Assembly: GCF_017877135.1 (NCBI RefSeq)
Contig: NZ_JAGIPH010000004.1
Coordinates: 310,001 to 374,000, forward strand
DNA: 64,000 nt
Source: Neorhizobium galegae
GTDB lineage: Bacteria > Pseudomonadota > Alphaproteobacteria > Rhizobiales > Rhizobiaceae
Direction: 5' to 3'
Under the pieces are notes generated by a model, which was given only the letters and a program-made list of their open reading frames with translations, made no database searches and was not told the origin of the DNA. Position 1 is the stretch's first letter; the number at the start of each line of letters is the position of its first letter. Both the position numbers and the translations under genes were made by a program. Positions 19,289 through 38,816 of this stretch are shown here, piece after piece.

Positions 19289-19413
19289 CCCCGCCCCCAA
19301 CCCCTCCCCACAAGGGGGAGGGGCTTAACCCGGCCGCTGCCAGTGCGATTGGCGGAGACTGTGCCGCCTGATCTCTCCCCCCTTGTGGGTAGATGGCGGC
19401 AGCCAGAGGGGGA
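19289..19413. repeat. Divergent palindromic element related to the 742-915 repeat
   Basis: The left part has a hairpin of CCCCTCCCC and GGGGAGGGG around acaag (19301-19324). The right part carries TCTCCCCCCTTGTGGGTAGATGGCGGCAGCCAGAGGGGG (in pieces, 19373-19413), close to the arm of the 742-915 element but with substitutions. It lies between the isomerase and oxidoreductase genes without any other coding sequence. Confidence 0.6.
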
Positions 19414-19446
19414 ATTTGCGCACATATATCGAGGAGGAGACATTTC

Positions 19447-20619
19447 ATGGCCATAGAAGCGAGCAAATCCGAACAGCGTGCGGCAAAAATCCGTCTTGGC
19501 ATGGTGGGCGGCGGGCAGGGGGCGTTTATCGGTGCCGTGCATCGCATGGCAGCGCGGCTGGACGACCACTACGATCTGGTGGCCGGGGCCTTGTCGTCCA
19601 CGCCGGAAAAGTCGCTCGCATCGGGTCGGGATCTCGGGCTTGATCCGCAGCGGTGCTATGGCTCCTTTGCCGAGATGGCCGAAAAGGAAGCGGCCCGCGA
19701 AGACGGGATCGAGGCGGTCTCGATCGTGACGCCAAACCATGTGCATTTTGCCGCCGCCAAGGCGTTTCTGGAACGCGGCATCCATGTCATCTGCGACAAG
19801 CCGCTGACGTCCAACATGGAAGATGCCAAGGCGCTGAAGGATGTGGCGGACAAGGCCGGCGCGCTGTTCATCCTCACCCACAATTACACCGGCTATCCCA
19901 TGGTGCGCCATGCGCGCGAACTGGTTGCAGCCGGGGAACTGGGCGATATCCGCCTCGTGCAGATGGAATATCCGCAGGATTGGCTGGCCGAACCGGTGGA
20001 GCAGACGGGCGCCAAGCAGGCGGTCTGGCGCACCGATCCGGCACAATCGGGCGTCGGCGGCTCGACCGGCGATATCGGCACGCATGCCTATAATCTCGGC
20101 TCGTTCATCTCGGGCCTCGAACTCGATGAACTGGCGGCCGACGTGCACACCTTTGTCGAAGGTCGCCGGCTGGACGACAATGCCCATGTGATGCTGCGGT
20201 TTAAAGGCGGTGCGAAGGGTCTGCTCTGGTGCAGCCAGGTGGCGACCGGCAATGAAAACGGCCTGAAGGTGCGCATCTATGGCACCAAGGCCGGCATCGA
20301 GTGGACGCAGGCCGATCCGAACTATCTCTGGTTCACGCGATTGGGCGAGCCCAAGCAGTTGATCACCCGCGGCGGTGCCGGGGCAGGGGCTGCAGCTTCC
20401 CGCGTCACCCGCATCCCGAGCGGTCACCCGGAAGGCTATCTCGAAGCCTTTGCCACCATCTATTCGGAAGCGGCGGCCGCCATCCATGCGGCTCGATCCG
20501 GTGCGAGCATCGATCCGGACGTCATCTATCCGACGGTCGATGACGGCGTGAAAGGCGTCGCCTTCGTCACCGCCTGCATCGAAAGCGGCAAGAAAAATGG
20601 TGGCTGGGTGAAGGTGTGA
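19447..20619 (+). CDS. Gfo/Idh/MocA-family NAD(P)-dependent oxidoreductase
   Basis: 390 aa. The N-terminal Rossmann motif GMVGGGQGAFIGAVHR is at residues 18-33. The family motif appears as VICDKPLT, a DKP variant of EKP, near residue 117. The C-terminal substrate domain includes GGSTGDIGTHAYNL with the family's conserved Asp and His, and GHPEGYLEAFATIY. Such enzymes oxidise sugar or inositol hydroxyls, often at C3 of a glycoside. The GAGGAGGAG ribosome-binding site selects ATG 19447. Last gene of the operon, probably working with the TIM-barrel protein upstream on an imported sugar. Confidence 0.88.
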   Translation: MAIEASKSEQRAAKIRLGMVGGGQGAFIGAVHRMAARLDDHYDLVAGALSSTPEKSLASGRDLGLDPQRCYGSFAEMAEKEAAREDGIEAVSIVTPNHVHFAAAKAFLERGIHVICDKPLTSNMEDAKALKDVADKAGALFILTHNYTGYPMVRHARELVAAGELGDIRLVQMEYPQDWLAEPVEQTGAKQAVWRTDPAQSGVGGSTGDIGTHAYNLGSFISGLELDELAADVHTFVEGRRLDDNAHVMLRFKGGAKGLLWCSQVATGNENGLKVRIYGTKAGIEWTQADPNYLWFTRLGEPKQLITRGGAGAGAAASRVTRIPSGHPEGYLEAFATIYSEAAAAIHAARSGASIDPDVIYPTVDDGVKGVAFVTACIESGKKNGGWVKV

Positions 20620-20674
20620 GCGGTAGGGCAAGGGCGTCCGCCGCAAAGGCTGCGCGAGTCGCGTTCGGTCAACT

Positions 20675-22000
20675 TCAGATCGGTGTGGGAAGTGGCGGCA
20701 GAAGCGTCACCTCCCACCGTTCCACCGTGGTGCCGTTATACGACACGCTGTTGACCAGCGGGCCGTTGCCGAGCCGGTCGCTGTAGGGGATCGAATAGAC
20801 CTCGTTGTTGGACGCGGCAAAGATCACGCCGGCATAGGGGTCGTAATAGGTGTTGTCCGGCTGTGCTTCGGCAAAGGCGGGCAGTGGATCAAGGTGCCAC
20901 CACTCCCGGCTGGTCATATCCTTGAGCTTCTGGGTCTGGCCCGCAGGGATGATATCGCTGTTGACAAGGCCAAGCAGCAGGCCTGACGTGATCTCGCCGA
21001 TCAACAGGTTCTTGGTCGTCATCTCGACGCCTTGTCCCGTCAATCCATTTTGTTCAATATACGTGGCAAAATCCTGCCATCCGCTGCCCGTAAATGTCAC
21101 GGCGGAGTTTGTCGCCTGGCCGTAAATCACGTCGTTGAAGCTCTGAGGATCCGTTGCCGAGATATGCACTGTGCAATTGTTGAAGCTCTCGCCGGGTGCG
21201 CTCGGTTGGCCATAGGGAGTAACATCGGTGGTGACGGATCCGTTGAGGTCGATGGAGCCGTCGGCAGCTGCCGTGGCCACGAGATTGAGCGTGAAGTTGT
21301 AGTTGATCGAACCTGGGCCGCCTTGCGAGGGAACGTTGAAGGCATTGGAATTGCTGATCGCGGTTGTCTGACCGGCGGCATTGACGGCCTGCAGATAGCC
21401 GATGAAGGACGGATACGGGTTTGAATCCTGGCCATAGGATGAGGGGCCGATATAGCGCAGCAGAGATCCATCGGCCGTTTTGGCAAGCGCACTTCCTTCA
21501 GGCCGTGTGCATTGGAAAAGTGTGTTGCCGATCTCGCTGGCCGCCCGTGTATAGCCGACCGACTGTAGCGGCGTGGCTTCCGTGCCGAAACTTTCGATCC
21601 GGAGAGGAGCTGTGAAATAATTGATCGCCGTCAGGTCGCCTTGATCGCCCGGATTTCCGTTGCAGGTGAGTTCAAACGTCTGGAACTGAACATCGAAGTC
21701 GGTTCCACCGCCAATATACGCAGGAGCGCTTGTCCGGGAGGCGAGAGGCGCTCCATAGGACACGTAGACCACGATGCCTATCGCCTGTGTGATGAAAAAG
21801 CCGTCCTCGCCGATCTCCTTCAGGCTGAGCGGGGTTGACATCAGATCCGTGGTCGCCGCGAATGGTACGGGGGTGCCATTCTGGTAGCTTGCTGTAAAAT
21901 CCTTCGATCCGAGATTGTGATTGAGGAAGCTGATGAAGACCTGCTTCTCGTCAAGGTCGGTTTTGTTGATGAACGTCAAGTTCAACCCGTCGTCGTTCAT
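20675..22000 (-). CDS. GH64/thaumatin-like superfamily protein, probably lacking one catalytic acid
   Basis: 441 aa with no signal peptide and no membrane segment. The start (LNLTFINKTDLDEKQVFISFL), the middle (IVVYVSYGAPL, then VQFQTFELTC and INYFTAPLRI) and the end (WWHLDPLPAF, YYDPYAGVIF, EVYSIPYSDRLG) read like the beta-1,3-glucanase GH64/thaumatin-like fold. In the characterised Streptomyces GH64 enzyme the catalytic pair is Glu and, 16 residues on, Asp in a VDMF context. Here Glu110 is present, but the matching position looks like Asn127 (INYF). That alignment is from memory. The coding sequence is visibly less GC-rich than its neighbours, and the upstream 22001-22100 is AT-rich, suggesting transfer. 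The function may be glucan binding rather than cleavage. Confidence 0.6.
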   Translation of the reverse strand: MNDDGLNLTFINKTDLDEKQVFISFLNHNLGSKDFTASYQNGTPVPFAATTDLMSTPLSLKEIGEDGFFITQAIGIVVYVSYGAPLASRTSAPAYIGGGTDFDVQFQTFELTCNGNPGDQGDLTAINYFTAPLRIESFGTEATPLQSVGYTRAASEIGNTLFQCTRPEGSALAKTADGSLLRYIGPSSYGQDSNPYPSFIGYLQAVNAAGQTTAISNSNAFNVPSQGGPGSINYNFTLNLVATAAADGSIDLNGSVTTDVTPYGQPSAPGESFNNCTVHISATDPQSFNDVIYGQATNSAVTFTGSGWQDFATYIEQNGLTGQGVEMTTKNLLIGEITSGLLLGLVNSDIIPAGQTQKLKDMTSREWWHLDPLPAFAEAQPDNTYYDPYAGVIFAASNNEVYSIPYSDRLGNGPLVNSVSYNGTTVERWEVTLLPPLPTPI

Positions 22001-22202
22001 GGAGCGATCCTCGCAGCGTTCGTGTCAAGGCATTGAGTGCAATTATAAGTTAATATTTTTATTATTGCAATATTCATGGTTGTGTCTTCATGCAGTTTGT
22101 CCGGATCCCGAAAGAGGATGACAGGCGACACATTCCCTGACGCGAGGATTTGATGTAGTCCGAAAAGCAGATGTGCCTATACGTGTGGAATGGAGCTGTG
22201 CC

Positions 22203-23576
22203 ATGACTGACCCGACACTTCTTGCCGACCGCTTTCCCGGGGATTTCCTGTTCGGCGTGGCAACGGCTGCCTACCAGATCGAAGGCGCCACCAAGGCCGA
22301 TGGCCGCAAGCCCTGCATCTGGGATGCCTTTTCCAACATGCCCGGCCGGGTGTTCAACCGCGATAACGGCGATGTTGCCTGCGATCACTACAACCGCCTG
22401 GAGGCGGATCTCGATCTCATCAAGGAGATGGGCGTCGAGGCCTACCGGTTTTCCATCGCCTGGCCGCGTGTCATCCCGGATGGGATCGGCCGCATCAACG
22501 AGCCGGGTCTTGATTTTTACGACCGCCTGATCGACGGCTGCAAGGCGCGCGGCATCAAGACCTATGCGACGCTCTATCACTGGGATCTGCCGTTGTCGCT
22601 GATGGGAGACGGCGGCTGGACGGCACGCTCCACGTCTTACGCCTTCCAGCGCTATGCCAAGGTGGCGATGGCCCGTCTTGGCGACCGGCTGGATGCGGTG
22701 GCAACCTTCAACGAGCCCTGGTGTTCGGTGTGGCTCAGCCACCTCTACGGTGTGCATGCGCCGGGCGAAAAGAACATGGAGGCGGCGCTGCACGCGCTGC
22801 ACTACACCAATCTTGCCCATGGCCTTGCCGTGGAGGCGATCCGCCATGTGAGCCCGACTGTGCCCGTCGGTCTGGTGCTGAACGCCCATTCGATCGTGGC
22901 TGGCTCCGACAGCGCGGCAGACCAGGCCGCAGCGGGACGCGCCTTCGATTTCCACAACGGCGCCTTTTTCGATCCGGTCTTCAAGGGCCACTATCCGGAA
23001 AGCCTGGTGGAAGCCCTTGGCGACCGGATGCCGGTGATCGAGGACGGCGATCTGGCCATCATCAACCAGAAGCTCGACTGGTGGGGCCTTAATTACTATA
23101 CGCCGATGCGGGTGGCCGACGACGCCACAGAGGGCGCCGAGTTTCCCGCAACCGTGCCGGCCCCCTTCGTCAATCCGGAAAAGACCGATATCGGTTGGGA
23201 GATCTTCCCCTCGGCAATGACGGACATGGTGGCGGATCTCTATCGCCGCTACGACCTTCCCGACCTGTACATCACCGAAAACGGCGCCGCCTACAATATG
23301 GGCGTGGTGGATGGCGAAGTGGATGACCAGCCGCGGCTCGATTACTATGCCGCTCACCTGTCGGCCGCTGCCGACCTCGTGCGTGACGGCTTTCCGCTGA
23401 AGGGCTATTTCGCCTGGAGCCTCATGGACAATTTCGAATGGGCGGAAGGCTACCGCATGCGCTTCGGCCTCGTGCATGTCGATTACGACACCCAGGTGCG
23501 CACGGTGAAGAAAAGCGGCAAGTGGTACAGCGAACTGGCTGGCGCGTTTCCAAAAGGTAACCATAAGTTGCCTTAA
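22203..23576 (+). CDS. bglA: Family 1 beta-glucosidase
   Basis: Glycoside hydrolase family 1 retaining beta-glucosidase/galactosidase, 457 aa, the full family length. The N-terminal signature FLFGVATAAYQIEGA is at residues 16-30. The acid/base Glu171 lies in TFNEPW. The nucleophile Glu359 is in YITENG. The aglycone-site motif WSLMDNFEWAEGY is near residue 415. No signal peptide, so it acts on imported disaccharides or glycosides in the cytoplasm. The start at 22203 (MTDPTLL) is chosen over an ORF extension lacking a ribosome-binding site. It is divergent from the GH64-like gene and could also serve the sugar operon upstream; both are inferences from position. Confidence 0.93.
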   Translation: MTDPTLLADRFPGDFLFGVATAAYQIEGATKADGRKPCIWDAFSNMPGRVFNRDNGDVACDHYNRLEADLDLIKEMGVEAYRFSIAWPRVIPDGIGRINEPGLDFYDRLIDGCKARGIKTYATLYHWDLPLSLMGDGGWTARSTSYAFQRYAKVAMARLGDRLDAVATFNEPWCSVWLSHLYGVHAPGEKNMEAALHALHYTNLAHGLAVEAIRHVSPTVPVGLVLNAHSIVAGSDSAADQAAAGRAFDFHNGAFFDPVFKGHYPESLVEALGDRMPVIEDGDLAIINQKLDWWGLNYYTPMRVADDATEGAEFPATVPAPFVNPEKTDIGWEIFPSAMTDMVADLYRRYDLPDLYITENGAAYNMGVVDGEVDDQPRLDYYAAHLSAAADLVRDGFPLKGYFAWSLMDNFEWAEGYRMRFGLVHVDYDTQVRTVKKSGKWYSELAGAFPKGNHKLP

Positions 23577-38410: not shown

Positions 38411-38816
38411 AGCCCAAAGTCGCACGTGCCCATGGGTGTCCGCCGACCCTCTATTTGGTGAGGTCATCGGTAAGGTACCTGGAATTAACCCCTCCAGTCG
38501 CTATTCCGGCCATCCGGGAAATGCGAGGACATCTGAAGCAACGACGGTGCGGGCCTTTTTGTTCTCTCCCGGCTTTCCAACAGCCGGGGTTACTGAAGAG
38601 GCACACCATCATTGCCGGAAGTGCGGTAGGGTTTTCCCTCCAATCCATGGCAGACAAAGCCGGATCATCGTTCTTGGCAGAGCGTTGTTCCACTTACCGC
38701 GCGTTTGAGCGTGTCAGGGAATCGGTGTCTCCACCGACTGGTTCCCGGCGCATGTTCATTCGTCCTTTGTCCTCCGGTTCGCAAGCCGGAGCCTTGAGAT
38801 ATGGAAGGGACTGACC
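38411..38816 (+). ncRNA. Long structured 5' leader of ornithine decarboxylase (probable speF RNA motif)
   Basis: About 400 nt between the likely promoter and the start codon hold no gene. Structures seen: CCCGGCT/AGCCGGG (38568-38588), a palindromic GGTGTCTCCACC (around 38726-38737), and CTCCGG/CCGGAG (38772-38791) just before the ribosome-binding site GGAAGGGA. A conserved cis-regulatory speF motif is known upstream of ornithine decarboxylase genes in alphaproteobacteria, and this leader fits it in position and gene context. I identify it from context, not by covariance search. A G/C stem followed by GGGCCTTTTTG (38550-38561) could act as an attenuator. Confidence 0.55.

Follow-up and report, generated by a model that had tools for sequence, protein, structure and literature searches.

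A leaderless GH64-like protein of Neorhizobium galegae with asparagine at the catalytic base position, probably gained horizontally

We analyzed a window of Neorhizobium galegae DNA (the whole stretch studied here, 64,000 nt) and found that a gene on its minus strand encodes a very divergent GH64/thaumatin-fold protein of 441 aa (Table 1). GH64 is a family of secreted beta-1,3-glucanases; this protein has no leader and carries Asn127 at the position of the catalytic base. At about even chances, we regard it as a non-hydrolytic or severely impaired, glucan-binding-type relative of GH64 that entered a variable slot of the genome by horizontal gain.

Table 1. Features of the locus and of large relatives (positions refer to the window, except in the last line, where they refer to the respective loci)
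Feature	Position	Strand	Basis or remark
Leaderless GH64-like protein, 441 aa	20675-22000	-	Frame, profile comparisons and model
Glu110 codon; counterpart of the catalytic acid in GH64 alignments	21671-21673	-	Alignments, A4 search of the PDB
Asn127 codon; the GH64 catalytic base Asp aligns here	21620-21622	-	Alignments, A4 search of the PDB
GAGGA, 7 bases ahead of the ATG, resembling a ribosome-binding site	22008-22012	-	By eye
Promoter-like TTGCAA-17-TATAAT	22042-22070	-	Consensus match only
Stretch without counterpart in relatives	20620-22202		Alignment to relatives breaks off near 20617-20620 and starts again near 22203
Gfo/Idh/MocA oxidoreductase, conserved left flank of the slot	19393-20619	+
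GH1 beta-glucosidase, conserved right flank of the slot	22203-23576	+	ATG at 22203 suits the alignments better than GTG at 22173
Large leaderless proteins with N-terminal GH64-like domain	L130:3498-6788, L131:2374-6765, L132:5591-8866, L133:5338-8607, L141:2649-6827

Relationship to GH64

Used alone, the protein matched no family of Pfam, NCBIfam or PHROGs at E up to 1 and no PDB sequence by phmmer. Even at this E it did not match the Pfam family PF16483 (cut-off 27 bits), and a PF16483 search of its own genome returned nothing, while in the phylum sample 8 of 398 genomes were matched at E up to 0.1, two of them over the cut-off. For a broader comparison a GH64 seed alignment was made from two PF16483-matched genome proteins and two plasmid proteins. 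Scanning genome_contigs with these seeds gave 240 stretches that matched the pattern, of which 171 encode relatives; the best 80 of these 171 correspond to 79 loci, which together with the four seeds make 83 ORFs, or 82 after a length filter (the GH64 set, i.e. the best 80 of 171 relatives plus seeds). As each locus was required to contain DW.EF or N.TQV[DN], conservation near the catalytic columns of this set is partly by construction.

An HMM of the 82 sequences scores the protein at 11.0 bits (best of 2000 shuffles: 7.5), and hhalign aligns it with GH64 at an E of 1.9e-5, valid for a single comparison, and a probability of 78%; at a low threshold, residues 3 to 435 are aligned and the motif order is kept. 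Both signals are of modest size. An HMM of four relatives, built without the query, gives it 34.7 bits, and the top score among 2000 shuffles is 8.8. We also used a ten-row alignment (A4) of the query and nine relatives, which holds no row of the GH64 set, although its rows were found via a profile that included GH64. Among 177,635 PDB sequences the A4 profile placed the GH64 structures 9vp9 (4e-7) and 3gd0 (5e-7) on top, the next match being at 0.025. PF16483 itself scores 25.7 bits in L144, 18.8 in L145 and 18.7 in L131, all below the cut-off of 27. Judged by these comparisons the protein is a GH64 relative via its kin, and the homology extends across the domain length, as expected for a member of the GH64 superfamily. 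The family libraries tried here miss most of this branch, so that routine annotation would overlook it.

The predicted structure points in the same direction. With the single sequence, AlphaFold reached a mean pLDDT of 34.9, which was not usable, and an alignment of the query with 42 GH64 rows (A2) was kept out of folding, as it misplaced the C-terminal motif. The input finally used consisted of 54 GH64 rows, picked among random subsets for well-aligned motif columns; it gave a mean pLDDT of 60.4 and a pTM of 0.63, with a good N-terminal half and poor prediction for most of residues 229-374 and 405-421. In a structural search with this model six GH64 chains came first (Z 18.6-23.7), thaumatin-like chains second (Z 10.5-13.7) and nothing further exceeded 3.4; Foldseek likewise returned six GH64 chains (E 3.7e-14 to 7.0e-10). 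The protein as modelled has the thaumatin-type core, but GH64 chains score higher (best Z 23.7 versus 13.7) with a model that was built from GH64 rows. The model supports a GH64-type fold, but it is not independent of the sequence result, because its input rows are GH64 sequences. The resemblance to GH64 that a sequence-only reading of this DNA had noticed is thus upheld by the profile scores above those of shuffles, by the A4 search and by the structure prediction which that reading had proposed as a check.

Catalytic pair and cleft residues

For the GH64 enzyme LPHase we take the catalytic pair to be Glu154/Asp170. For GluY, PMC8394091 gives Glu153 as the acid and Asp169 as the base. The catalytic acid is present in our protein as Glu110, and no row of A4 (10 rows) or of the tree described below (58 rows) deviates from Glu at this column; the base Asp is absent, as Asn127 is aligned with its column. 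The earlier claim that Asn127 replaces the second catalytic acid therefore agrees with the alignments. Asn at this column is also found elsewhere: the 82 rows of the GH64 set (best 80 of 171 relatives plus seeds) have Asp in 66 and Asn in 16 cases.

Among the GH64 columns that are free of the retrieval patterns, R182, P186, Y402 and D408 are kept, while four residues that are invariant in GH64 are altered (R77 to V, N387 to D, H394 to F and D407 to S). Alterations at D107 and W108 were considered as extra damage and dropped, since LPHase and 5h4e also have no Asp at 107 and the retrieval patterns favour DW. Compared with the GH64 endo-beta-1,3-glucanases (LPHase 3GD0, PbBgl64A 5H9X/5H9Y, 5H4E and GluY; PF16483), the protein is alike in predicted fold, motif order and catalytic Glu, but it has Asn for the base Asp, changes at other invariant residues, no leader and a score far under the Pfam cut-off. 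Hydrolysis is doubtful because of the Asn at the base position together with the changes at R77, N387, H394 and D407.

Relatives and evolution of the base position

Matches to the A2 profile came from 9 of the 297 order genomes: the own genome, four with ordinary GH64 proteins (G745, G819, G893 and G930) and four with proteins of a different kind (G749, G769, G821 and G969). To some of the latter the query is closest, with a phmmer E of 1.6e-7 to L120 and weak matches to L119 and L126. A profile of four of the different-kind domains and the query (A3) matched 6 of 318 genomes of the class, the own one included, and led to L141-L145. The ordinary GH64 proteins of the order scan include seven with signal-like starts (L114, L115, L117, L118, L123, L127 and L128, from G819, G930, G893 and G745), which belong to one family of the order; several of these loci are adjacent, at least four lying in one contig of G930.

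We calculated a tree of 58 rows with IQ-TREE, using 44 of the 82 GH64 rows and removing the base column. The query groups with L142-L145 (support 99/94), and this clade joins L130-L133 and L141 (98/96). Judged from sequence, the kin of the protein are thus leaderless GH64-like proteins of other Alphaproteobacteria; the clade profile and its L132 domain found nothing in viral contigs, plasmids or phages. L142-L145 share with the query the motif D-L-T-(A/S)-x-(D/N), but they keep Asp at 127, and their identity to the query is about 22-25%. Like the query, L130-L133 and L141 carry Asn where the base would be, and L134, which branches away from the ten proteins of the clade pair, has Ser. Asn is also present in L004/L013/L018/L026 and in L037/L042. 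The base position requires at least five changes on this tree, so that the loss of Asp is real in our protein but not peculiar to it. The branches of the query (2.0 changes per column) and of L134 (3.1) are long, and the run warns of long-branch joins; within the clade of the query, the change between Asp and Asn may have run either way. In L037-L050 and similar loci of Dyella, Rhodanobacter, Nitrospirillum, Acidobacteria and others, a GH64 domain forms the C-terminal part of open frames about 1630 codons long, and the Dyella-type frames have Asn at the base position.

Architecture and export

The gene starts with ATG at 22000 and lies in an open frame of 449 codons, 441 of which are the gene and only 8 of which lie upstream of the ATG. 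In the alignment the N-terminus coincides with the first GH64 strand, so that an alternative start cannot add a signal peptide; by frame and alignment the protein is confirmed to have neither a leader nor space for one. A leader-like start is also absent in the nine others of the clade pair and in L134, when starts are read at the first strand (L130, L132, L142 and L144 have longer in-frame starts too, which were judged by eye as non-leaders). The missing signal peptide stressed in the sequence-only reading is thereby real, but it is common to the relatives rather than special to this protein. N-terminal hydropathy is 0.96-1.53 in the clade and 1.69-3.0 in six signal-bearing GH64 proteins; this is a weak check because other leaderless GH64 proteins reach 2.34, and the argument therefore rests on the frame start.

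L142, L144, L145 and L134 are stand-alone proteins like the query (449-453 aa; 449 aa for L142, L144 and L145), and L143 has 685 aa with an fn3 domain. L130-L133 and L141, in contrast, are 1090-1464 aa long and carry the Asn-type GH64-like domain N-terminally, followed by C-terminal parts that the query lacks. These parts include RTX repeats in L131 (40.1 bits, cut-off 23), AIDA repeats in L141 (65.5, cut-off 27) and DUF4114, which is over the cut-off in L132 (28.3), slightly under it in L133 (26.7), under it in L130 (24.1) and weak in L131 (14.4). L141 adjoins a TibC-type glycosyltransferase and an ABC transporter that includes a C39 peptidase domain, whereas none of the six tested neighbours of L130-L133 is a secretion gene. 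From these domains and neighbours, export by a type I-like route seems likely for L131 and L141 and less sure for the remaining large relatives; a literature search for DUF4114 with type I secretion found no report. The suggestion that the query is exported by a non-Sec route gains some support from its relatives only, and Pfam and NCBIfam detect no RTX, DUF4114 or similar C-terminal part in the query itself. In the titles and beginnings of abstracts of the open-licence literature we found no description of leaderless or base-less GH64-like proteins.

Proposed function

In an inverting enzyme, loss of the base should stop the activation of water. We propose that the protein belongs to a divergent GH64/thaumatin branch of the Alphaproteobacteria, stands alone without a leader, and that its gene reached its variable place in a sugar-utilisation operon by horizontal gain. 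Lacking the general base, it would no longer, or hardly, hydrolyse beta-1,3-glucan by inversion, while the cleft may still hold a glucan-like ligand, so that the protein would act as a binder (lectin-like or as a competitor) and not as a glucanase. It would probably be expressed from its own promoter and would stay in the cytoplasm unless freed by lysis or by a route invisible in the sequence. Binding is suggested by analogy, from the fold and two precedents: GH64 enzymes bind paired glucan chains in the cleft, as shown with an inactive mutant (PMC7915573), and fungal SUN domains bind beta-1,3-glucan (PMC13251364). The thaumatin-like proteins and SUN domains differ from the query in that their thaumatin core is shorter or fused to a sushi-like part. 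A non-hydrolytic use that is favoured would fit the repeated occurrence of Asn at the base column, since Asn arose there repeatedly. Several points speak against a binder: a cytoplasmic glucan binder would have no obvious ligand, the gene is restricted to a single genome with a long branch, and the query has Asp122, near the base in sequence, where the GH64 set has Asn. In addition, the residue changes that oppose hydrolysis may also spoil the binding of glucan.

The change of several cleft residues would also suit a scaffold of the thaumatin/GH64 fold that binds no sugar and serves, for instance, as a protein-binding or cell-surface-type module, and the GH64-like domains at the N-termini of long repeat-bearing proteins might be tips of this kind. 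The conservation of Glu110, which suggests that the cleft is still in use, speaks against such a scaffold, which we regard as unlikely. Returning to the glucan-binding reading, it might be extended to the whole alphaproteobacterial leaderless branch, which would have given up the base and become a recognition module, either by itself or at the end of large RTX/AIDA/DUF4114 proteins with type I-like secretion, of which it would be the tip; we consider this tentative, with somewhat less than an even chance. That the base was given up several separate times over the superfamily, as part of this recognition-module reading, appears plausible to a similar, slightly less than even degree. If true, the repeated Asp-to-Asn changes in leaderless proteins and in tips of large proteins would form a natural series in which to study how a glycosidase turns into a glucan-recognition module. 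The presence of Asp- and Asn-bearing relatives within one clade makes the effect of the change directly testable.

Genomic slot and horizontal gain

The gene lies antisense to the surrounding operon, which comprises a LacI regulator, an ABC ATPase, a BPD_transp_2 permease, a sugar-binding protein, a xylose-isomerase-like protein and the Gfo/Idh and GH1 genes. DNA of the two flanks was matched in all 57 genomes of the genus. In 38 of the 56 other genomes both flanks occur within 2 kb, with gaps of 123-535 bp in 28 and of 951-1891 bp in 10 genomes; in the remaining 18 the flanks are further apart, on separate contigs, or one of them is weak. The A4 profile found no match at E up to 0.01 in the slot gaps searched (9 of the 10 long and 4 of the 28 short ones). 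The slot (20620-22202 in the window; loci L146-L158 elsewhere) turns over across the genus, the long gaps holding unrelated open frames, and in a Neorhizobium petrolearium plasmid two other small genes are found in it.

As a query the protein alone matched 1 of 297 genomes of the family, 1 of 398 of the phylum and 2 of 57 of the genus (the samples overlap). The second genus match (in G306, E 4.8e-4, with three stops) was taken as chance, as it is antisense to another open frame and has no clade-profile score, which leaves the own genome as the one credible match and none in the other 56. Searches with the protein alone in plasmids, phages, viral contigs and genome_contigs detected no homologues. 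The A4 profile found one gene in the own genome, the gene itself, and matched 2 of 9 genomes of the family of L143; in another phylum sample it matched none of 85 genomes in a search that had no positive control.

The GC content of the gene (57.1%) is the lowest among the 53 mechanically chosen gene-like ORFs of the window, the other 52 having 0.627 ± 0.024, and so the gene is indeed less GC-rich than its neighbours. Codon usage, like taxonomic spread a check that the sequence-only reading had named, is just mildly low by rank (GC3 rank 6 and codon bias rank 9 of 53). Horizontal gain, which had been suspected from the sequence, is probable because of the missing credible match in the 56 other genomes of the genus, the variable slot and the low GC. 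The gene is thus a guest in a turnover spot of a sugar-utilisation operon.

The position next to a GH1 beta-glucosidase gene, together with the kept Glu110, could indicate that the protein is still a glycoside hydrolase which cuts beta-glucan or an oligosaccharide, perhaps in the cytoplasm, by means of Asp122 or Asp119 or by a base-independent path. Asp122 is shared by L142-L145, but since these clade-mates hold the base Asp as well, it is no substitute base there, and the sister clade with Asn at the base has Asn at 122 too. As the gene is also antisense to the operon and missing from the slot in the relatives examined, we regard an active hydrolase as rather improbable, and a partnership with the GH1 gene was dropped for the same two reasons. 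A recent import that has no use and is heading to decay would be in line with the occurrence in one genome, the long branch and the lack of a secretion part, but it is very improbable given the full-length open frame, in which the codon phases look like those of a coding gene (GC1/2/3 = 0.538/0.466/0.708), and, as weak evidence, the promoter-like and ribosome-binding-like sites (three promoter-like sites in the region versus 0.8 ± 0.9 in shuffles).

Two further possibilities were rejected: insertion by a mobile element, as there is no clear long repeat at the slot ends and no tRNA in the window, and a defence system, as PADLOC gave no match for the query or two relatives. Elsewhere in the window, at 38412-38717, an Rfam ar45 small RNA is directly followed by a speF leader.
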